A stretch of DNA of 34,144 nucleotides, taken from positions 1 through 34,144 of IMG/VR virus record IMGVR_UViG_3300038439_000018; one strand, written 5' to 3'. Position numbers and translations under genes: made by a program. This DNA is from a virus. Below are positions 6,112 through 34,144 of the stretch, piece after piece; position 1 is the first letter of the stretch; every line of letters begins with the position of its first letter. The notes under the pieces are model-generated. The model saw only the letters and a list, made by a program, of their open reading frames with translations. It made no database searches and was not told where the DNA came from.

Positions 6112-6161
6112 TGGGTAGAGAAGTGTTCGGAGTCATTGATGGGGGGAAAGGAGTTTTGAAG

Positions 6162-6353
6162 ATGAGAAGGTTACTGCTCATAATCTTATTGGTGGTAGCT
6201 GCCGGGTGCGCCCCGAGTGCGACGGCTTATCGTGACTACCTGATAGACGCGAGATTTTATGGTGCGATCAGCGATGAAGAGTATAAGGCGAAGATGACGC
6301 CGGAGCTATTGTATAACGTAGCTATAGAGCAGACCTGGGATTGGAGGCGCTGA
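6162..6353 (+). CDS. Small phage lipoprotein
   Basis: A 63-residue protein starts MRRLLLIILLVVAAGCAPSA. It has two Arg, a hydrophobic core and the lipobox V-A-A-G-C with Cys16, so it should be exported and lipid-modified. The mature part is short, acidic and helical (SDEEYKAKMTPELLYNV). I chose the ATG at 6162 because AAAGGAG lies 8 bases before it. An earlier GTG at 6111 would bury the signal sequence. It sits between TerL and the head genes. Such phage lipoproteins can block superinfection at the cell surface or, as Rz1-type spanins, act in lysis; no Rz partner is visible, so exclusion is the likelier guess. Confidence 0.65.
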   Translation: MRRLLLIILLVVAAGCAPSATAYRDYLIDARFYGAISDEEYKAKMTPELLYNVAIEQTWDWRR

Positions 6354-7112: not shown

Positions 7113-7454
7113 ATGAGTGACCCCAAGGATTCTGAAAAAATTGAACCACTGAAAAGTTATATAAAAAAAGAAATGCAGGAAAAATGGGAACCTATGAAGT
7201 ACCTATCCCCTGTAGAAGTAATCAAGGGTACGAAGAGGCAAACCCAAATATTTGAAACTGATAATCCCCCAGGCCGTAAGAAAGGCGGACCCGTCAAGAA
7301 GGGGGTGAAATACATCGTGGGCGAGAAGGGTCCTGAGGTTTTTGTCCCCAAAAAATCTGGAACCATCGTCCCCAATAGGACGGCCCCTAAACCCCAAAAG
7401 AAAGAGACCAGAGGATTAGCCGCTTTCGCCAAAGAGATGAAACAGGAGAACTAA
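7113..7454 (+). CDS. Basic protein with a tape-measure-type C-terminal motif
   Basis: In this 113-residue protein, residues 58-88 read G-G-P-V-K-K-G-V-K-Y-I-V-G-E-K-G-P-E-V-F-V-P, then KKSGTIVPN. This V-G-E-x-G-P-E-x-F-V-P-x-x-S-G-x-I-x-P-N motif is a recurrent element near the C-terminus of long tape-measure proteins of siphoviruses and myoviruses. Here it stands in a small protein next to the portal. The N-terminal 40 residues are charged and helical. GAGG lies 9 bases before the ATG. It may be a head or portal-vertex component; the meaning of the motif outside tape measures is not known to me. Confidence 0.6.
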   Translation: MSDPKDSEKIEPLKSYIKKEMQEKWEPMKYLSPVEVIKGTKRQTQIFETDNPPGRKKGGPVKKGVKYIVGEKGPEVFVPKKSGTIVPNRTAPKPQKKETRGLAAFAKEMKQEN

Positions 7455-12100: not shown

Positions 12101-12277
12101 ATGTACGACACCAGCAACAGGACCCCGGAAGAAGAGCAGCGCCTATGGGAGCGGCGGTTAAAGCTTCTGCCTGAGATGGATGAGCTAGATTATCGGGAGG
12201 GGGAGTATCGACCAGAAACTACCCTGAACGACCAGGATATAGCCACCGTGGTATTTGGAGGTGGCAGGAGAAAGTAA
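12101..12277 (+). CDS. Small acidic protein sharing the scaffold motif (58 aa)
   Basis: It begins MYDTSNRTPEEEQRLWERRL and contains LLPEMDELDYREG at residues 22-34, matching the M-D-D-L-D motif of the scaffold N- and C-termini. Its TAA overlaps the capsid ATG (TAATG). The first half is a charged helix; the end is FGGGRRK. The shared motif and location suggest a part in capsid assembly, such as docking to the same partner as the scaffold. No family recognised. Confidence 0.6.
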   Translation: MYDTSNRTPEEEQRLWERRLKLLPEMDELDYREGEYRPETTLNDQDIATVVFGGGRRK

Positions 12278-13464
12278 TGGCTATCTTAGGTATGCGCGGC
12301 ACCGGGTCCTGGGTGACTGGTACGGAGCGTCCGCTGAATTGGCGGGAAAAGCTCTTGTATTTGTTCCCAAACAGTCCGGCTATTTTCACAATGCTGGTCA
12401 GTAAGCTAGGTCAGGAAGTAACAACTGACCCCACCTTCAACTGGTTTGAAAAAGGTTTGCCTGTTTATCGGCAGACCATGTTGGCAAATCAACCCAACGT
12501 AGCGGATGTTGCCCTGGTCTTGGATAACTCCGTAGACACTATCCCGGCCCAAATCTTCCGGGCGGGTTACGTGGTTATGAATGATCGGACAATGGAAGTC
12601 ATGTGGGTTTCGGCTAATCCCGTCGCCCCTTGGACCACCATCACAGTTATCCGGGGTAAGGGTTCTGCCGCAGCAGCGATGTTGGCCGGTGACGGTATTA
12701 CCATCATCGGCGATGCCCATGCGGAAGGTGCGACGGTTCCGAAGGCGATTCAGTTCGCCCCATCCAACATCTTCAATTATACCGGTATCACCCGAACTCC
12801 CGGCAGCATCACACGCACAGCCAAGAAAACCCGGCTGCGGACCGGCGATGCGGCTAAGGAGATCAAACGCCAGTGCCTGGAAATGCACGGTATCCAGATG
12901 GAGTGGACGTCATTGTTTTCCAGCCGGGTGGAGGATCTGACCACCTTCGACGAACCCACCCGTACCCCTGGTGGTTTGAGCTACTTCATTAGCTCCAACG
13001 TCCAGGACTTTTCCGGGTCCCTGGACATTGACGCCTGGGACGATCTCCTGGAACAGTGTTCTCGCCAAGGGTCGGAAGAGCGGCTGTTGATGGCTGGTGG
13101 TGAGGCGCTGAATAACCTGAACAAGATGTGCCGGGATAAGTACACGATCAACGCCACCCCTAAGGACCAGACCTATGGGATGAACCTGCAAACTTGGGAA
13201 ACCTCTTATCTGCGCTTGCAGCTCAAGCGGCATCCCCTGTTGTCTCTGCATCCCATCTTCAAGAACTGGGCCTTTATGGTCGACATGAAGAACATCAAGT
13301 ACCGGTACATCGACGACACCATGTGGCGGGAATCCAACATCCAGGCCAGTTCTGAAAACCTGTTGGATGCCCAAAACAGTGAATTCCTGACGGAATGGGG
13401 TCTGGAAATTTGGTTCGAGAGCACCCATGCCATCATGAAGGGCATCAGTGGGTTCACCCCGTAA
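12277..13464 (+). CDS. Major capsid protein, SU10-like (DUF5309) HK97-fold
   Basis: This 395-residue protein resembles the SU10/DUF5309 capsid family (PF17236): an early TVIRGKGSAAAAML stretch, then NIFNYTGITRTPGSITRTAK and LEMHGIQMEWTSLFSSRVED (helix of the P-domain), LLMAGGEALNNLNKM, and a C-terminal EFLTEWGLEIWFESTHAIMK followed by GISGF. AGGAG precedes the ATG by 6 bases. It is the shell subunit, assembled on the scaffold with the portal at one vertex. Codon use is GC-rich and regular, as expected for the most expressed gene. Confidence 0.85.
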   Translation: MAILGMRGTGSWVTGTERPLNWREKLLYLFPNSPAIFTMLVSKLGQEVTTDPTFNWFEKGLPVYRQTMLANQPNVADVALVLDNSVDTIPAQIFRAGYVVMNDRTMEVMWVSANPVAPWTTITVIRGKGSAAAAMLAGDGITIIGDAHAEGATVPKAIQFAPSNIFNYTGITRTPGSITRTAKKTRLRTGDAAKEIKRQCLEMHGIQMEWTSLFSSRVEDLTTFDEPTRTPGGLSYFISSNVQDFSGSLDIDAWDDLLEQCSRQGSEERLLMAGGEALNNLNKMCRDKYTINATPKDQTYGMNLQTWETSYLRLQLKRHPLLSLHPIFKNWAFMVDMKNIKYRYIDDTMWRESNIQASSENLLDAQNSEFLTEWGLEIWFESTHAIMKGISGFTP

Positions 13465-13526: not shown

Positions 13527-14252
13527 ATGCCTATATCCCCATCACCATCGTTAAGCCCATCAGTATCTCCGTCAATATCGGCCAGTCCTTCGGTATCGCC
13601 TTCGGCAAGCCCGTCAATATCGCCGTCACCGTCGGTTAGCCCTTCGGCCAGTCCTTCGGTTAGCCCTTCGGCCAGTCCTTCGGTAAGCCCGTCTGGAAGT
13701 CCTTCGGCCTCACCTTCGGTTTCCCCATCACCGTCACCTTCGGTTTCCCCATCGGCTTCCCCATCACCCAGTCCTTCGGCCAGTCCATCGGTGAGTCCTT
13801 CACCCAGTCCATCGGTGAGTCCGTCGAAGAGTCCATCACCATCACCATCGTTAAGCCCGTCAGTGTCTCCTTCTGTATCTCCATCGGCGTCTCCATCGGC
13901 GTCTCCATCCGTTAGCCCATCGGTATCGCCCTCAGTCTCGCCTTCGGTGTCCCCCTCTTATGAACCGGTATTTGTGGTTAAACACCTGTTTCAGGAAAAG
14001 GGTAACATCATCAAGATGGTGAAGATGACCCTGAGGAAGTATATCGCTGGTGGCATCCCCATCTCCGCGGGGGAATGTGGTCTACGCCATATCCGCTGCC
14101 TTATACCCCCAGGGACGGCTGCGAGCTACCCCATTTGGTGGGATCAGGCCAACAGCAAGCTGCGAATCTACAGCGCGATAGGGGTGGAGTTGGGTAATGA
14201 AGATGTCGACGTGTCGGGAGTGATAATATACACCCTGGCAGTAGGGTACTAA
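13527..14252 (+). CDS. Decoration-like protein with a Ser/Pro repeat stalk
   Basis: In this 241-residue protein, residues 4-144 are almost only (S-P-S-x) repeats, where x is V, A, I, P, L, G or K. This is a polyproline-II-type extended stalk comparable in composition to mucin-like, O-glycosylated sequences. Residues 146-241 are a folded domain: FVVKHLFQEKGNIIKMVKMT, YPIWWDQANSKLRIYSAIG, and a final GVIIYTLAVGY. That domain resembles small beta-rich proteins encoded beside capsid genes in many phages, probably head decoration. AGGAGG lies 8 bases before the ATG. A hairpin follows the stop, then the sugar-modification cassette. Capsid binding by the C-terminal domain with an outward stalk is inference. 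Confidence 0.7.
   Translation: MPISPSPSLSPSVSPSISASPSVSPSASPSISPSPSVSPSASPSVSPSASPSVSPSGSPSASPSVSPSPSPSVSPSASPSPSPSASPSVSPSPSPSVSPSKSPSPSPSLSPSVSPSVSPSASPSASPSVSPSVSPSVSPSVSPSYEPVFVVKHLFQEKGNIIKMVKMTLRKYIAGGIPISAGECGLRHIRCLIPPGTAASYPIWWDQANSKLRIYSAIGVELGNEDVDVSGVIIYTLAVGY
13536..13958 (+). repeat. Tandem repeat region encoding (S-P-S-x)n
   Basis: About 35 imperfect 12-base units encode the Ser/Pro stalk. Serine is written with nearly all six codons (AGC, AGT, TCG, TCA, TCT, TCC), so the DNA is less repetitive than the protein. Blocks such as gccagtccttcggt recur. The protein pattern is kept while DNA identity is broken up, suggesting selection for the repeat and against slippage. It is not a CRISPR: there are no constant repeats with unique spacers. 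Confidence 0.85.
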
Positions 14253-14313: not shown

Positions 14314-15096
14314 GTGAAGCTATCAGTAATTATACCTAGTTGGAAAGATCCCCTGCTGATAAACACTATTGACTCCTTGCTTAATAGTTCGGGGTTGGGG
14401 GACCAATTGGAGGTTATTGCTGTGCTGGATGGCTACTGGCCAGTATTTGAACTAAGGGGTGATCCCAGGGTTAGGTATGTTCATCTAGGTAAGAACCGGG
14501 GTATGAGGGACGCTATCAACGCCGGTGTGTTAGTGTCAAGGGGTGAGTTCATTATGAGGACGGATGAGCATTGTCTATTCGCTCAGGGTTTTGATCGCGT
14601 AATGACGGATAGTTGCCAGCCAAACTGGATTATGACCGCCCGTAGATACTTCCTCAACCCCATCAAATGGGAAGTAATGGACAACCCCCATATAGATTAT
14701 GAAAAGTTAGTTATCCAAGGCGACAATACTAAATTTGCTGGACAAAGTTGGGGGAGACGAGATCGGGAAAGAAAAGATGTGATGTGTGATGAGACAATGG
14801 CTATGCAGGGGTCGTGCTGGGTTATGCCCCGTGAGTGGTGGGATAAGGTGATAGGGGAGTTACAGACGGAAGGATACGGCCCCCTATATCAGGATTCCCA
14901 CGAGATGGTGTTCAAGACCTGGCAGGCGGGTGGCCAACTAATGTTGAATAAGAATACCTGGTTTGCCCATAAGCACCGATCGTTTTCCAGGACCCACAAT
15001 TATGGGACTGCTGAGGCCATGCCGGGCTGGACCTATTCCCTGAACCTGTGGCGGGACTATTACCTTAGTGAGGTTAAGTCTAAGTGGAAAATTTAG
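14314..15096 (+). CDS. Family-2 glycosyltransferase (GT-A)
   Basis: A GTG start follows GAGGTG; the protein is 260 residues. It begins KLSVIIPSWKDPLLINTIDS, the usual S-V-I-I-P-S entry of GT2, then VIAVLDGYWP (34-43), an L-G-K-N-R-G-M-R-D-A-I-N-A-G segment (58-71) that reads the nucleotide-sugar, and MRTDEHCLFAQGFDRVM with TDEH (83-86) in the DxD position. A Q-G-S-C-W block near residue 168 and H-E-M-V-F-K-T-W near 210 match the later catalytic and acceptor region, and both are shared with the GT2 at 18206. It transfers a sugar from a nucleotide donor; the acceptor is unknown. First gene of the cargo cassette. Confidence 0.85.
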   Translation: MKLSVIIPSWKDPLLINTIDSLLNSSGLGDQLEVIAVLDGYWPVFELRGDPRVRYVHLGKNRGMRDAINAGVLVSRGEFIMRTDEHCLFAQGFDRVMTDSCQPNWIMTARRYFLNPIKWEVMDNPHIDYEKLVIQGDNTKFAGQSWGRRDRERKDVMCDETMAMQGSCWVMPREWWDKVIGELQTEGYGPLYQDSHEMVFKTWQAGGQLMLNKNTWFAHKHRSFSRTHNYGTAEAMPGWTYSLNLWRDYYLSEVKSKWKI

Positions 15097-15725
15097 TTCT
15101 GGGTTCAGAGGGGTTTGTGGGTAGGTATCTGTGTAACTACCTGGAGGGTAAGGGAGAGACAGTAGTTCATTTTGATATAAAGCGGGGTGAGGAGGAGGAT
15201 GCCAGGTTTGCGGTGCTCCCCTTGGAGCGGGTGGATAAGGTTTTCTTTCTTGCCTGGGATGTGGGTGGGTCTAAGTACCTTTACCGAGGGGATAATCAAC
15301 TCCATCAGCTAAAATGGAATGTGGACCTGTTACATAACGTCATGCCCCAACTGGAGAAAAGTAAAGTACCCTTTGTTTTTGCCTCAAGTCAGTTGGCGGA
15401 GGAAAATACAGTATATGGGATAACCAAAAAACTGGGGGAGTTTTGGACAGTGCAGATAGGGGGGTGCTACGTCAGGTTGTGTAATACTTACGGGGCGTAT
15501 GAATCAGTATCCAACAGGAGCCATGTTGTTGCGGATTTCGTCAACCAAGCCAAGGTGGGTGAGATAAAGATGCTGACTGGTGGTCAGGAGAAGCGGCATT
15601 TTATTCACCTGGAAGATATTTGCGAAACACTTTACCGGACTAGTAATAATTGGGTATCTATAAAAGATTTGGCCGGGCTGGTACAGAGGATCACGCTGGA
15701 AGAAGGCATAAGGAAAATGATTTGA
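15084..15725 (+). CDS. NAD-dependent epimerase/dehydratase (extended SDR), short
   Basis: This 213-residue protein starts (V/M)ENLVLGSEGFVGRYLCNYL, the Rossmann G-x-x-G-x-x-G (GSEGFVG, 7-13), with D31 at the end of strand 2. A Ser region FASSQLAEEN (99-107), Y111-G-I-T-K115 as the catalytic YxxxK, and a VRLCNTYGAYE block follow. KRHFIHLEDICETL near 170-183 is the usual late motif. It is about 90 residues shorter than common sugar epimerases, so the substrate-binding C-terminal part is reduced. It overlaps its neighbours by 13 and 4 bases. It likely makes a modified nucleotide-sugar for the adjacent transferases. Confidence 0.8.
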   Translation: MENLVLGSEGFVGRYLCNYLEGKGETVVHFDIKRGEEEDARFAVLPLERVDKVFFLAWDVGGSKYLYRGDNQLHQLKWNVDLLHNVMPQLEKSKVPFVFASSQLAEENTVYGITKKLGEFWTVQIGGCYVRLCNTYGAYESVSNRSHVVADFVNQAKVGEIKMLTGGQEKRHFIHLEDICETLYRTSNNWVSIKDLAGLVQRITLEEGIRKMI

Positions 15726-16465
15726 AAGATTTAACCATACTATTCATAACAGGCAATAAAGTCCCAGAGTCCTGGGCGGAGTATCACCGGGAGGTATTGT
15801 TAGAAGCTGTTGGCGATACGCCTATCATCACTCTTTCTAAAAAGCCGACACCCATCGGGCTGAATGTGGTTCAAGAGGAAGGAGAATTTTCTTATATTAG
15901 TAATCCCGATTTCCCAGACCCCCATTTGGTTGACAACACTGGTGTCTATTCAGGATTCTATGCCCAATTATTTAAAGGGGCAAAATTAGCTATTACCCCC
16001 TATATCGCCATAGTTGAGGACGACACACTTTACCACAGTAGTCATTTTGAATTTAGGCCGCCGATGGATGCCTTTGCGTATAACTTAGCCCGGTGGTCGC
16101 TATACACCTGGGGACCACCTGTCTATTCTTATATCGGTAGTAGGATGGGGTGCGCCGGTATTTACCCCAGGGAATTAGCGGTAGAGACACTAGAAGAAAG
16201 ATTTACGAAATTCAGGGGTAGGATACCATTTGAATATTTCGGGGAATTGGGGTGCTATGAAAAGTATATGGGCCTCAAGAGACATACAACCGTTACTTAT
16301 TATTCCGAAATGCCTATTATTCAGTTTAATCACGATTATTTTTCCACCATCCCCAATACTCCGGAACTTGTAGCCCGTAGGCATAGGAAGAGAATGGGGT
16401 TTCTTAGGGCCTTATCAGTCCCATTTTGGGGGGCGTCCTCTGAATTGGTGAAGGAGTTCAAATGA
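15722..16465 (+). CDS. Putative GT-A glycosyltransferase, paralogue A
   Basis: A TTG start overlaps the previous TGA; AAGGA lies about 8 bases before it, and the residues after it align with paralogue B's MKNITILFLT, so the longer frame from 15650 is rejected. In this 247-residue protein, VEDDTLYH with EDD (99-101) is the metal-binding DxD-type motif of GT-A enzymes. Other shared blocks are WAEYHREVLLEAVGDTPIIT, FTWGPP-like YTWGPPVY, PRELAVETLEERF and an F-N-H-D-Y motif near the end. The family is related to GT2-like proteins of phages but not one I can name. It probably works with the epimerase and GT2 genes. Confidence 0.65.
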   Translation: MKDLTILFITGNKVPESWAEYHREVLLEAVGDTPIITLSKKPTPIGLNVVQEEGEFSYISNPDFPDPHLVDNTGVYSGFYAQLFKGAKLAITPYIAIVEDDTLYHSSHFEFRPPMDAFAYNLARWSLYTWGPPVYSYIGSRMGCAGIYPRELAVETLEERFTKFRGRIPFEYFGELGCYEKYMGLKRHTTVTYYSEMPIIQFNHDYFSTIPNTPELVARRHRKRMGFLRALSVPFWGASSELVKEFK

Positions 16466-17136
16466 AAAATATAACAATCCTTTTCTTAACCGTCAATGAG
16501 GTTCCGGAAAGGTGGGCAGAATACCAGAAGCAAACCCTGTTAGAGGCAGTGGGGGATGCACCAATAATCACCCTGTCGATGAAACCACTAGACTGGGGAC
16601 ACAATATATTGCAGGATAGGCCCCGGAGCCTATCCAATATCTACTGGCAGATGCTTCGGGGGGCAAAGTTGGCCGATACTCCATTTATTGGAGTGGCTGA
16701 GGATGATACTCTTTATCATAAGGAACATTTCTCAGTTAGACCGGCCCCGGATGAGTTTATATACAATATGACTCACTGGGCATTATTTACTTGGGGTCCA
16801 CCAACCTATCACTGGAGGAATCGTAAGGGAAATTACTCAATGATATCTCCGCGGGAACTATTGATTGATGCTCTGGAAGAAAGGTTTGCTAAATACCCTG
16901 ATGGTACTCCAGAGGATATAACAGGGGAGCTGGGTAGGGGTAGGGTTGATAGAAACCTGGGGCTAACCCGAAGGAAGTTGAAGGAGTTTTGGACCACAAT
17001 TTCCATAGTAAACTTTCAGCACGATCACTCCTCGGAGGAATACCAATATAGACATGTTAAGAGAATGGGGAAATTAAGAGCCTTTGAAATACCGTATTGG
17101 GGTAAGGCAAAGGAATTGGTAAAACACTTCAAATGA
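16462..17136 (+). CDS. Putative GT-A glycosyltransferase, paralogue B
   Basis: This 224-residue protein is a tandem duplicate of the preceding gene: MKNITILFLTVNEVPERWAE, LLEAVGDAPIITLSMKP, VAEDDTLYHKEHF with EDD (80-82), LFTWGPPTYH, PRELLIDALEERFAKY, KRMGKLRAFEIPYWG. It lacks a ~20-residue insert present in A after residue 50. AAGGAG lies 5 bases upstream, with ATGA overlap. The pair has diverged strongly while keeping the metal motif, implying different donors or acceptors. Confidence 0.65.
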   Translation: MKNITILFLTVNEVPERWAEYQKQTLLEAVGDAPIITLSMKPLDWGHNILQDRPRSLSNIYWQMLRGAKLADTPFIGVAEDDTLYHKEHFSVRPAPDEFIYNMTHWALFTWGPPTYHWRNRKGNYSMISPRELLIDALEERFAKYPDGTPEDITGELGRGRVDRNLGLTRRKLKEFWTTISIVNFQHDHSSEEYQYRHVKRMGKLRAFEIPYWGKAKELVKHFK

Positions 17137-17195
17137 AAACTATAATATACTACAGCAGCAACCGGGAAGACTTGGGTAAGGTGACATGCGAATAA
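17133..17195 (+). pseudogene. N-terminal remnant of a third GT-A paralogue
   Basis: The ATG overlaps the TGA of paralogue B, just as B overlaps A, and encodes only MKTIIYYSSNREDLGKVTCE before TAA. The opening M-K-x-I-I-Y-Y-S-S-N-R-E-D matches in style the first strand of the two paralogues (MKNITILFLTVNE) and of phage transferases I recall with I-I-Y-Y-x-x-N-R. The rest is replaced by the methyltransferase, whose start lies inside it. It could instead be an unrelated leader peptide. Confidence 0.4.
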
Positions 17196-17791
17196 TTGAT
17201 GGGTTAAAATTTAAAGGACAGCCATTTGAGATGCCGGGTTGCGTTAGGGCGGATTTACCTGAGTTTTTTAAAGAAATAGGGTACAAGGTCGGGGCTGAAA
17301 TCGGAGTATGTAAGGGGGCATTCACCGAGAAGTTCTGTAAAGTAGGGTTAAAGATGTTTGCAGTTGATGGGTGGTTAGCCTATGACGATTATAATGAGCC
17401 GGAGAGGAACCGGCAGAGAAGGCAAGATTTCTTGCATGAACACACGAAGAGGGTATTAAGCTCGTATCCGGACTGTGTTATTATCAGAAAACTATCCATG
17501 GAGGCAGTAAAGGATTTTGCAGATAGCAGCTTGGATTTTGTTTACATAGACGCTCACCATGGTTTTAAATACGTTACTGAGGATATTTATGAATGGTCAA
17601 AAAAGGTGAGAAGTGGGGGGGTGATCTCAGGCCATGACTTTATTGAGACCAATACAATAAAGGTCAAAATTGTTTTGCTTGCCTACACAAGAGCATACAG
17701 AATAAATAATTGGTATGTACTTGGGCGCAGTGAGGCACCTAAAGGGGAGAAGAGGGAAAGCTCCCGCAGTTGGTTTTGGATTAAACCCTAA
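17186..17791 (+). CDS. SAM-dependent class I methyltransferase (Methyltransf_24 type)
   Basis: In this 201-residue protein, motif I GAEIGVCKG (36-44) binds SAM, VDGW (60-63) is the acidic end of strand 2, SLDFVYIDAHHGF (115-127) is the D-x-x-F-x-Y-I-D-A-x-H hallmark of the family-24 methyltransferases, and RSGGVISGHDF (142-152) follows. Members act mainly on sugars and other small or glycan-bound substrates, which fits the flanking transferases. AAGGTG lies just before the ATG. Its TAA overlaps the nitroreductase ATG. Confidence 0.8.
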   Translation: MRIIDGLKFKGQPFEMPGCVRADLPEFFKEIGYKVGAEIGVCKGAFTEKFCKVGLKMFAVDGWLAYDDYNEPERNRQRRQDFLHEHTKRVLSSYPDCVIIRKLSMEAVKDFADSSLDFVYIDAHHGFKYVTEDIYEWSKKVRSGGVISGHDFIETNTIKVKIVLLAYTRAYRINNWYVLGRSEAPKGEKRESSRSWFWIKP

Positions 17792-18213
17792 TGAATATAA
17801 AGGAAACCATTAAAAAAAGAAGGTCAGTCAGGGCATTTCAGATGTGGAAGGAAGTTCCTGGTCTAACCGAGGCTATTACCCTTGCCAGAAGAGCGCCAAC
17901 AGCCGGAGGTATTCGGGGGTATCGGGCCTATATTACTAAAGAACCCATAGGTCCCTACGGTGCCCCGGTTTATATTGTCATTTGTGCTGATCAGTCAGCC
18001 TATGAGAAGCGGTATGGGGATAGGGGGATGAATCTATATGCAATTCAGGACGCCACGATCTATGCTGCTTATCTCCAACTAATTCTTACAGATATGGGGT
18101 TGGCGACTTGCTGGATCGGGGCTTTTAATGAAGAGAGGATTAAGGGGGCAATTGGTATAGCAGAACTGAAACCAGTAGTTATTCTTGCAGTGGGGTTTGC
18201 ACAAGATGAGTAA
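17791..18213 (+). CDS. Short nitroreductase-family flavoprotein
   Basis: In this 140-residue protein, KKRRSVRAF (8-16) is the conserved N-terminal FMN-phosphate contact, ARRAPTAGG (32-40) is the A-P-S/T-A-x-x/N motif, NLYAIQDATIYAAYLQL is the central helix and DMGLATCWIGAFNEE (101-115) is the usual G-L-x-x-x-W-I-G block. Typical members have about 170-200 residues, so it is compact. These enzymes use FMN and NAD(P)H to reduce nitro groups or related substrates, and some act in sugar or cofactor tailoring. The start is coupled to the methyltransferase (TAATG) with no good ribosome site. Its role inside a sugar cassette is not obvious. Confidence 0.8.
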   Translation: MNIKETIKKRRSVRAFQMWKEVPGLTEAITLARRAPTAGGIRGYRAYITKEPIGPYGAPVYIVICADQSAYEKRYGDRGMNLYAIQDATIYAAYLQLILTDMGLATCWIGAFNEERIKGAIGIAELKPVVILAVGFAQDE

Positions 18214-19183
18214 ATGTGATCTCAGCATAATTCTCCCCAGCCGAAAGGAAATGTTCCTTGCTAGAACCATACAGGATATCTTGGAGAACATAGAGGCTGA
18301 CACCGAGATAATTGCTGTACTTGATGGGGCCTGGTCTGCCCCCCCTGTCCTCCAGCATGATAGGGTTAATATAGTCTATGTACCAGAGGCAGTGGGGCAG
18401 AGGGCAGCTACTAACCTAGCCTGTAAGTTAGCCCAGGGCAAATATGTGATGAAGCTGGATGCCCACTGCTCCTTTGACCAAGGTTTTGACCGCAAGATGT
18501 TGGATGGGTTTGCGGAGGTTGGGGACGAAGTAACTATGACCCCCATTATGAGGAACCTTTGGGCCTTCGACTGGAAGTGTTATAGTTGTGGATGGAAGAG
18601 ATACCAAGGGCCGACGCCGGAGAGGTGCGAAGACTGTGGAAGTAAAAAAATTAGAAGGAAGATGGTGTGGGTAGGTAAGAAGAATCCACAAAGTTGGTCC
18701 TATTGCTTCGACGCTGAACCCCATTTCCAATATTTCGAGGACTACAAGCATCGGCCTGAAGTCATAGAAGCCAAAAACAAGACCGGATTCACGGAAACTA
18801 TGTCCCTCCAGGGAAGTTGCTGGATGGCTACCCGTAAAAAATATTGGGAATTGGATTTAGGTGGCGAAAATTTAGGTTCATGGGGAAATCAAGGTCTTCA
18901 AGTTGCCTGTGCCACATGGTTGTCAGGAGGTAGCGTTTTAGTTAATCACAAGACTTGGTATGCCCACATGTTTAGAACCCAAGGTGGCGATTTCGGTTTC
19001 CCCTATGAACAGCGTGGCAGGGAAGTCCAAAAAACTAAAAAAACAGTTAAGGAACTATTTTGGAATAAAAAACATCCCAAACAAATCTACCCGGTTAGTT
19101 GGTTGGTTGAGAAATTTTCTCCAGTTAAAGGGTGGTCGGTTGAAGACATCGAAAATCTTAAAGAACATGAGAATATGATATAA
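18206..19183 (+). CDS. Family-2 glycosyltransferase with an inserted zinc ribbon
   Basis: The protein is 325 residues; the start at the ATG inside the previous gene's end gives MSKCDLSIILPSRKEMFLAR, the normal GT2 beginning. An in-frame TTG at 18185 would add seven residues. EIIAVLDGAWS (35-43), VYVPEAVGQRAATNLA (58-73) and KLDAHCSFDQGFDRKM (83-98, DAH in the DxD position) are catalytic. Residues 125-144 carry C125-x2-C128 and C141-x2-C144, a zinc ribbon inserted into the domain. LQGSCWMATRKKYWEL and HKTWYAHMF are shared with the GT2 at 14314. The 3' end becomes AT-rich and a TATAAT box overlaps its stop. Confidence 0.85.
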   Translation: MSKCDLSIILPSRKEMFLARTIQDILENIEADTEIIAVLDGAWSAPPVLQHDRVNIVYVPEAVGQRAATNLACKLAQGKYVMKLDAHCSFDQGFDRKMLDGFAEVGDEVTMTPIMRNLWAFDWKCYSCGWKRYQGPTPERCEDCGSKKIRRKMVWVGKKNPQSWSYCFDAEPHFQYFEDYKHRPEVIEAKNKTGFTETMSLQGSCWMATRKKYWELDLGGENLGSWGNQGLQVACATWLSGGSVLVNHKTWYAHMFRTQGGDFGFPYEQRGREVQKTKKTVKELFWNKKHPKQIYPVSWLVEKFSPVKGWSVEDIENLKEHENMI

Positions 19184-20877: not shown

Positions 20878-21936
20878 ATGGCACTGCCTAATCAGTTAAA
20901 AAGCGCCCGGATGACCGGCAGCACCTTGGGTAAAGATATTCCTACCAATATCGGAGCCTTGGAACAAGCTATTTGCGATATCTTCGGGTTTACGATTAAC
21001 GTAAACGTCACCGAATCCCCTGTAGGCTCTGACAATGCTGGAATAATCACTAAGGCACTGTTGCGTCAAAAGGCCGCGGCCCCGGTAGGGTGGCGATTCT
21101 TGGACAGTACTGGGGGGGGCGAATTCCGACTGGTCAATAATGGCACTTACGTCAGCATAGACCAGAATACCGGAACCGAAGGCACCCCTATCTGGACCAA
21201 CCAATGGAAGATGGCGATTGCTACCGGGATAGTTACCTTTTCAGCCATCCCGGTCGGCCCCGCGGCTGACCCCTCGTCTGATAACCAACTGGCGAGGAAG
21301 GCTTACGTAGATTCATTAGTACCGGCGGCTGTGCTGCTGACAGGGGATCAGTCGGTTGCTGGAATTAAATCCTTTGGCAGTTTTCCGATTACGCCATCCA
21401 CCGCCCCCACCACTGATTACCAGGTGGCCAATAAGAAGTATGTAGATGGCCAGTTAGTACCACCGACTTATTTAGCCATTCTTCAGAACCGCCAGGTTCA
21501 GAATACCGGCGGGGGAACAGCTACATCTGGGTCGTGGTTGATTGTTCCCCTCAATACTGAATATGAAGATGCCAACAATATTATTGATTCTTCTGCCCTC
21601 CCCGCCTTTTCTCTTGCGGCTGGCACTTATAGAATTGAGGCAATCATTCTATTTAATAACGTCGGCTATGCTCAAGTAAGATTATATAATGTGACTGATG
21701 TTGGTACACAACAAAATATTGCCGCAAAGGGTATGTTGGGAACGTCAGTAACGGCTATGGCAGGCTATTATGGAGATGGTGCTTCGGAAATATATGGAAC
21801 TTTTATTATAACTGGTACTAAGCAATTTAGAATTGAGTACCAAGTAAATACTACTTCTGTGGACATCGGCTTTGGAAGACCAGCTAACTTTGGCGTAGAA
21901 GTTTACTCCCAGGTGAAGATTACGAAGATTAATTAA
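20878..21936 (+). CDS. Tail fibre-like protein with a C1q/TNF-like head domain
   Basis: This 352-residue protein has two copies of a fibre-type segment, SSDNQLARKAYVDSL (131-145) and TTDYQVANKKYVDGQ (178-192), each followed by a variable strand. This A-x-K-x-Y-V-D pattern is common in phage tail fibres. Residues 200-352 are beta-rich: YLAILQNRQVQNTGGGT, SLAAGTYRIEAIILFNNVG, EIYGTFIITGTKQFRIEYQV and VEVYSQVKITKIN, in the order of a C1q/TNF-like jelly roll, often a receptor-binding trimer tip. AAGGGG precedes the ATG by 6 bases. Host contact is inferred, not shown. Confidence 0.6.
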   Translation: MALPNQLKSARMTGSTLGKDIPTNIGALEQAICDIFGFTINVNVTESPVGSDNAGIITKALLRQKAAAPVGWRFLDSTGGGEFRLVNNGTYVSIDQNTGTEGTPIWTNQWKMAIATGIVTFSAIPVGPAADPSSDNQLARKAYVDSLVPAAVLLTGDQSVAGIKSFGSFPITPSTAPTTDYQVANKKYVDGQLVPPTYLAILQNRQVQNTGGGTATSGSWLIVPLNTEYEDANNIIDSSALPAFSLAAGTYRIEAIILFNNVGYAQVRLYNVTDVGTQQNIAAKGMLGTSVTAMAGYYGDGASEIYGTFIITGTKQFRIEYQVNTTSVDIGFGRPANFGVEVYSQVKITKIN

Positions 21937-32728: not shown

Positions 32729-32743
32729 AGAGAGGACCTAATC

Positions 32744-34144
32744 ATGAAAAGTAAATGGATTGTTCTGATTGCCGCAGTGGTATTCGGGTTTTACGGGTTA
32801 AGCATTGCCGGACCCTACACCACTGGCCCCTACACAAACCCAAATGCACCAGTCTGGGGAACCATTGTAGAAACCCCCACTACTTTATCTGGATATGGGA
32901 TTACCGATGCTATCCAGGTTTTATACGGTGGGACACAAGCAGTTATTGAGGCTGCCATTACTCAGGTAGGGGCAGACTTAGCAACTCTATATCTTGCCCC
33001 GGATACTTGGAGTATTCTTACTAATCTAATAATACCATCTAATATATCCCTTAAATTGGACAAAGGAGTTGCGCTAAATCCCCCAGAAGCTGGCCCCTAT
33101 CAAATCTTCTCCTGCACCGGCACTGGCAAGGTAATTTTTGGTAACGCCCCCAATCCTATTAAGTCCATCTGGTTCGGGAACACTGCGGCTGGAATCCAGT
33201 TGGCAATAAACTCAGTACCTAATTATACTCCGTCAGTAGTAGAAATGCCTCCTGGAGAGATAACCCTGTCTACGGGCTTGACAATCCCTAATTCCATTCG
33301 AGGATTAACTTTGCAAGGCTATGCCGGTCCAGAATATTATTCCTCAGTTATTTTCGGCGGGACGATTCTGTATTGGCTGGGAGCCGGACCAGGTCTTACA
33401 GTGGGAGATAACTCCGGTTATCATCTTGCCGACCATATCACACTTAAAAATTTTGCTTTGGCTGGAGCCGCTTATGGTGCCGCTAATACTGGTGAGGTGG
33501 GTATAAAGGTTGGATATGACAAGGATAATGCAGCCATCCACTTAACGCTGGAGAACATTCTGGTTCGTGGGTTTGTGACCTGTGGAATTGATTGGAGGAG
33601 TGCAGAATACACTAAGCTGACTCGGGTTCAGAGCATGACAAATACCGGTCCTGGATTGAAAGTTGGCAATGGTTATTCAGCCGTCGTATCTTTTGATACC
33701 TGCTCTTTTGGACACAACTTGCAGGAAGGAGTGTTGATTGATCCAGGGGCGATGGTAGGGTCTGCATTTGCCGCCGCCACTTTCATCAACTGTGATATAC
33801 AATCGAATGGCTATGAAGGGGTGCGGGTTGCATCCTCCAGGACCCTTTCCGTCAAGGGTCTCAAATTAGATGGGAATTGGATAGAAGGCAATAATACTGA
33901 CGCTGGACGTTCCGGTGGTGGCTATTTTGATATATCGCTGGTTGGGGTGGCCTACCGGCACATCGGAAATGTGACCTTGATTGGTAATGAATGGGGATCG
34001 ACACAGAATCGGTTAGGCACCGACCTTGTTGTCAATGGTGCTTTCGCTGCCGACACCGACTGGACAAAGGGAGCTAACTGGACGATTGCAGCCGGAGTAG
34101 CCGCTCATGCAGCTGGAGCCGTAGCAGTTTTGGAGCCTACGGTG
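32744..34144 (+). CDS. Tailspike / right-handed beta-helix protein, 3' truncated by window end
   Basis: 467 residues are visible and the frame is still open. It begins MKSKWIVLIAAVVFGFYGLS with IAGPYTT, a Sec-type signal peptide cleaved around residue 23. From about residue 140 to 390 repeated short strands (GLTIPNSIRGLTLQGYAG, DHITLKNFALAG, NILVRGFVTCGIDWRS, AAATFINCDIQSNGYEGVRV, LKLDGNWIEGNNTDAG, TLIGNEWGSTQNR) give the ~20-25 residue rhythm of pectate-lyase-like beta-helices used in spikes that bind or degrade polysaccharide. The last part (TDLVVNGAFAADTDWTKGAN) looks like a carbohydrate-binding jelly roll. GAGAGGA precedes the ATG. Confidence 0.75.
   Translation, partial: MKSKWIVLIAAVVFGFYGLSIAGPYTTGPYTNPNAPVWGTIVETPTTLSGYGITDAIQVLYGGTQAVIEAAITQVGADLATLYLAPDTWSILTNLIIPSNISLKLDKGVALNPPEAGPYQIFSCTGTGKVIFGNAPNPIKSIWFGNTAAGIQLAINSVPNYTPSVVEMPPGEITLSTGLTIPNSIRGLTLQGYAGPEYYSSVIFGGTILYWLGAGPGLTVGDNSGYHLADHITLKNFALAGAAYGAANTGEVGIKVGYDKDNAAIHLTLENILVRGFVTCGIDWRSAEYTKLTRVQSMTNTGPGLKVGNGYSAVVSFDTCSFGHNLQEGVLIDPGAMVGSAFAAATFINCDIQSNGYEGVRVASSRTLSVKGLKLDGNWIEGNNTDAGRSGGGYFDISLVGVAYRHIGNVTLIGNEWGSTQNRLGTDLVVNGAFAADTDWTKGANWTIAAGVAAHAAGAVAVLEPTV

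Follow-up and report, generated by a model that had tools for sequence, protein, structure and literature searches.

The window analysed here is the whole 34,144-base stretch of a linear virus record (IMG/VR IMGVR_UViG_3300038439_000018), and its last gene encodes the protein, hereafter the spike, that is the subject of this study (Table 1). By homology the record is a SU10-capsid podophage-type virus, as fixed by its major capsid protein, whose relatives belong to podophage-type phages of Pseudomonas, Vibrio, Caulobacter, Polaromonas and Microcystis and to a Desulfofustis phage; its portal protein is likewise of the SU10 type (PF23899, E 2.4e-16). The spike gene sits in the structural module, 3' of the capsid, portal and fibre genes and 15 bp past the gene for a 1955-aa protein. 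No relatives were recovered from IMG/VR through the 1955-aa protein or the capsid protein, and none of the seven other SU10-capsid phages examined carries a signal-bearing spike.

Table 1. Coordinates of the spike gene, its parts and its structural neighbours in the window
Feature	Position	Strand	Basis or remark
Spike ORF	32744-34144	+	Open at contig end; 467 N-terminal residues visible
Shine-Dalgarno-like AGAGAGGA	32729..32736	+	Sequence and start-codon survey; 7 nt to ATG 32744
Predicted Sec signal peptide MKSKWIVLIAAVVFGFYGLSIA	32744..32809	+	Rule-based test; predicted signal peptidase I (SPase I) cut after A22
Mature spike (predicted)	32810..34144	+	N-terminal 445 residues visible; runs off contig end
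Tail-fibre motif TPTTLSGYGITDA	32873..32911	+	Residues 44-56; phrog_3018 match at residues 35-67
Right-handed beta-helix region (PF13229)	33554..33853	+	Residues 271-370; E 8e-06
DLVVNGAFAADTDWTKGANW module (phrog_30593)	34025..34129	+	Also within tail proteins of contigs L001 and L002
SU10-type major capsid protein	12277..13464	+	PF17236, E 1.5e-28; phage relatives; fixes phage type
Presumed internal virion protein, 1955 aa	26861..32728	+	Function inferred from size and position; 15 bp gap to spike
Second tail fibre, without signal peptide	20878..21936	+	Within the same structural module as the spike

A reading of this DNA from its letters alone (the sequence-only reading) had proposed that the ORF encodes a tailspike beginning with a Sec signal, and the gene coordinates, the start codon and the three-part N-terminus all bear out the signal. 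The start at ATG 32744 is secure: an in-frame stop five codons upstream marks the end of the preceding gene, and over 150 codons the frame offers just two further starts, a GTG at codon 12 and a TTG at codon 105, neither with a Shine-Dalgarno sequence. The product reads MKSKWIVLIAAVVFGFYGLSIA|GPYTTGPYTNPNAPVWGTIVETPTTLSGYGITDA..., with a predicted mature start at GPYTT, and combines the features expected of a Sec and SPase I substrate, namely a positive n-region (MKSK), a 15-residue uncharged core and an A-x-A-like site (S-I-A|G). The hydrophobic core is long (KD 3.1 over 11 residues). A position weight matrix trained on 17 Escherichia coli signals gave this N-terminus a modest score (95th to 99th percentile of shuffles) and proved overfitted, so it was replaced by a rule-based test whose background was measured; the spike passes this test, as do only 30 of 12,024 internal pseudo-starts (0.25%). 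Sec export of the spike is likely on these features, and its cleavage is predicted. In most substrates of the Bacteroidota signal peptidase I, cutting exposes a glutamine (PMC5837995); since the spike has SIA|G and not such a Q-rule site, its cut site speaks for a host that is not a member of this group. The only other rule-passing signal in the window belongs to a small lipoprotein at 6156-6353 (MKMRRLLLIILLVVAAG|C, TTG start), 3' of the terminase gene, possibly a spanin or a receptor-blocking lipoprotein.

The identity of the protein as a tailspike rests on three things: the fibre motif PTTLSGYGITDA, the position of the gene and a PF13229 match that, at 26.0 bits, lies marginally above the 25.9 cut-off. 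That part of the sequence-only reading which saw a tailspike with a beta-helix is strengthened by the fibre-type motifs (PTTLSGYGITDA and the phrog_3018 match) and by the place in the structural module, while its beta-helix stays marginal. Podophage tailspikes of the P22 gp9 type are comparable in having a beta-helix, marginal in the window spike, together with a fibre motif in a gene that closes the late structural module. It is plausible on this analysis that the window spike is a virion member. To our knowledge, conventional tailspikes have no signal peptide, unlike the window spike; the spikes of the Cellulophaga phages phi17:2 and phi14:2 are examples. Full-length homologues of the spike were found neither among 50,697 phage records (Cellulophaga phages included) nor in GTDB genomes or the PDB, and the same phage records gave no homology to the Cellulophaga gp101-104 families discussed below. 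An AF2 model built from the single sequence was discarded (pLDDT 34). In IMG/VR the spike matched other contigs by its C-terminal module only, in L001 and L002; the module is CBM_4_9-like in L001. This NGGF-ADTDWTKGANW carbohydrate-binding-like module (L001, ~1892-2044; L002, 5002-7800; window, 34025-34129) is common to tail proteins of three kinds from unrelated phages and is duplicated in L002.

Tail-fibre-type proteins behind signal peptides are encoded in five other IMG/VR contigs: L001, found via the C-terminal module of the window spike, and L044, L138, L141 and L216, found by pattern scans that are selective and so yield no frequency of such fibres. In the latter four the signal stands ahead of the GYGITD tail-fibre motif that the window spike also carries. 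A GTDB scan (MK, hydrophobic codons, GYGITD) returned three matches, all out of frame. The L044 protein carries an SGNH enzymatic domain that shares 32-39% identity with its homologue in Klebsiella phage tail fibres. The L001 fibre reads MKQFLTITGATLLSLCLIFGESLA|TNSYYNHTNPF. Its signal was called by eye and narrowly fails the strict rule-based test owing to a Glu near the cut site. Relatives of this fibre occur with the same gene order in Vibrio phages and in two Escherichia phages, PTXU04 and HelliStehle. The L001 mature part, TNSYYNHTNPF, aligns with M(A/T)N(S/T/E)Y, with which these related fibres truly start; three IMG/VR relatives begin at the same point, without a signal. Because the proteins of these relatives begin where the L001 mature part begins, the L001 signal is, by this alignment, an addition ahead of a complete conventional virion fibre. 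Like the window spike, L001 joins a signal to a tail-fibre protein in a podophage-type gene order, and the DWTKGANW module lies on its contig; it differs in that its PTXU04-type N-terminal domain is unrelated and no beta-helix was found in it.

Cultured phages supply the strongest evidence. In the marine Cellulophaga phages phi19:1, phi10:1 and phi18:3 (Assiduviridae and Pachyviridae, families that take in siphoviral and podoviral members; PMC8776804), signals occur in 11/11 receptor-binding-module proteins annotated from virion MS/MS and in 0/18 of the other proteins so annotated, a contrast drawn from RefSeq notes and not from spectra, with module limits set after the data had been seen and with proteins partly homologous between phages, so that a Fisher test on these counts overstates their independence. 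By phage, the counts are 4/4 in phi19:1 (gp101-gp104, one a pectate-lyase-type spike; gp104 satisfies the signal test in its loose form only) vs 0/10, all of gp091-gp094 in phi10:1 vs 0/6, and all of gp085-gp087 in phi18:3 vs 0/2. The same signal-bearing module is found in phi13:2, phi46:3 and Ingeline_1, with the exception of one 71-aa fragment in phi13:2; this fragment (gp085; L230, 17781-17996) corresponds to the C-terminus of phi19:1 gp101, apparently as part of a split gene. More signal-bearing genes of the beta-helix/pectate-lyase type, at 19289-20779 of L229 and 7814-9154 of L228, close Cellulophaga receptor-binding modules. Signal-bearing spikes are not universal in Cellulophaga phages, since the spikes and fibres of the Crass-like phi14:2, phi17:2 and phi12:1, and those in the part of phi38:1 examined, have no signals. 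The bodies of the phi17:2 and phi14:2 spikes share 44-49% identity with gp102, and these spikes have conventional N-termini, so one and the same spike body goes with either type of N-terminus.

The Cellulophaga proteins resemble the window spike in joining a Sec signal to a spike or fibre whose gene closes the structural module; two of them are annotated as pectate lyases. They differ in that each phage has several, that their cut sites follow the Bacteroidota Q-rule and that they share the architecture of the window spike and not its sequence; virion MS/MS annotation, moreover, is a feature of theirs. Glutamine stands at the expected cleavage site in 20/21 of the signal-bearing Cellulophaga proteins (phi19:1 gp104 being the exception), which fits real cleavage by the host signal peptidase, and across four phages the signal codons of the gp102 family show synonymous differences only. 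The signals thus appear adapted to the host signal peptidase, which argues against an uncut attachment peptide.

Altogether, a spike with a signal is, as judged from these comparisons, no freak, and recurs in unrelated phages. The sequence-only reading was right to see a conflict between an export signal and virion assembly in the cytoplasm, which for tailed phages is taught as entirely cytoplasmic. We propose a model in which the spike is a Sec-exported receptor-binding protein, cut by signal peptidase I, matured outside the cytoplasm and joining virions at or after lysis, and we put this at nearly an even chance. It is put forward because it fits cleaved export and virion detection together. 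The spike would be made as a Sec precursor and exported by the host Sec translocon, signal peptidase I would cut it after SIA|G, and the mature spike would build up outside the cytoplasm (in the periplasm if the host is diderm). Particles assembled in the cytoplasm would then meet mature spikes at or after lysis, the step of attachment being inferred, and the attached spikes would serve as the receptor-binding proteins of the virion. Such late attachment is chemically possible, since tailless P22 particles can be fitted with tailspikes in vitro. Counting against the model are the seven other SU10-capsid phages without a signal-bearing spike, the lack of sequence similarity between the window spike and the Cellulophaga proteins, and the modest matrix score of its N-terminus. 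The wider claim, that in several unrelated tailed-phage lineages receptor-binding proteins are Sec precursors cut by the host signal peptidase and added at or after lysis, is more tentative, and we would call it possible but doubtful.

The main rival is that the protein is a secreted non-virion enzyme or adhesin with a spike fold, which would cut or mask surface polysaccharide and so ease release, prevent re-adsorption to debris or mediate superinfection exclusion, the virion being served by the fibre at 20878-21936. As the genome encodes this separate signal-less fibre, the spike could be absent from the virion, and in L138 and L216 large fibre-like ORFs without a signal likewise adjoin the signal-bearing fibre. 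Pantoea WceF also combines a tailspike fold for a glycan enzyme with an export signal, although it is a bacterial gene and its signal is of the Tat type (PMC7949094). Secretion by infected cells, which the sequence-only reading had suggested, draws support from the comparative data, but its assumption that export excludes a place in the virion does not, given the signal-bearing spikes annotated from virion MS/MS in three cultured phages. The rival also sits badly with L001, whose signal-bearing fibre lies at the tail-fibre locus of its relatives and shares their N-terminal domain. MS/MS detection could, on the other side, reflect co-purified secreted protein. We regard a purely secreted role as unlikely, if still a serious contender. 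The sequence-only reading had also offered a hydrophobic segment serving virion attachment or a membrane anchor. The long, very hydrophobic core would suit an N-terminus left uncleaved and with no export in practice, and signal and anchor are inseparable from sequence alone; however, SIA|G is a good cleavage site, the Cellulophaga set conforms to the Q-rule, and the relatives of the L001 fibre attach without any such peptide, its signal standing ahead of a complete fibre N-terminus. We therefore consider an uncleaved segment improbable, and a membrane anchor possible but not needed. A chance hydrophobic N-terminus or a misassembly is very improbable: the gene does lie at the extreme end of a linear metagenomic contig, but its frame and GC content agree with the upstream region, its ribosome-binding site is good, background N-termini rarely pass the test and the architecture recurs in other phages. 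A later true start giving a signal-less protein, which would have overturned the signal, is hardly credible and was rejected along with an assembly artefact, as the strong Shine-Dalgarno sequence precedes ATG 32744 only and codon 12 falls within the hydrophobic core.

The use of the host Sec system by late proteins of tailed phages has precedent in the signal-bearing and SAR endolysins, such as Lys44 of fOg44, which differ in being lysis proteins (PMC6116005). Phages of P. gingivalis encode five functionally uncharacterised proteins with Q-rule signals, which are not linked to virion spikes (PMC10367356), and the absence of a signal peptide has been used as support for a phage origin of tail-type proteins (PMC6199706). 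In the open-licence literature searched we found no account of signal-bearing virion spikes, nor were the signals of the Cellulophaga spikes pointed out there. If our model is true, the last step of virion assembly takes place outside the cytoplasm, and export followed by late addition would revise views on phenotypic mixing in co-infections and on superinfection exclusion; spike folding (e.g., disulphides) and the way annotators recognise spikes would also be affected. The question can be tested directly on the Cellulophaga phages, for which cultured hosts are at hand and proteomics data already exist.

Elsewhere in the window, a low-complexity SPSVSPSASPS... protein (13527-14252), perhaps a head fibre or decoration that carries glycans, is encoded immediately past the major capsid protein gene and ahead of a glycan-gene cassette. 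This cassette (14314-19183), at the boundary of capsid and tail genes, encodes two GT2 glycosyltransferases, an NAD-dependent epimerase, a methyltransferase and a nitroreductase. A short protein at 7113-7454 contains GEKGPEVFVPKKSGTIVPN, a motif typical of tape-measure C-termini, here in a podophage-type genome.
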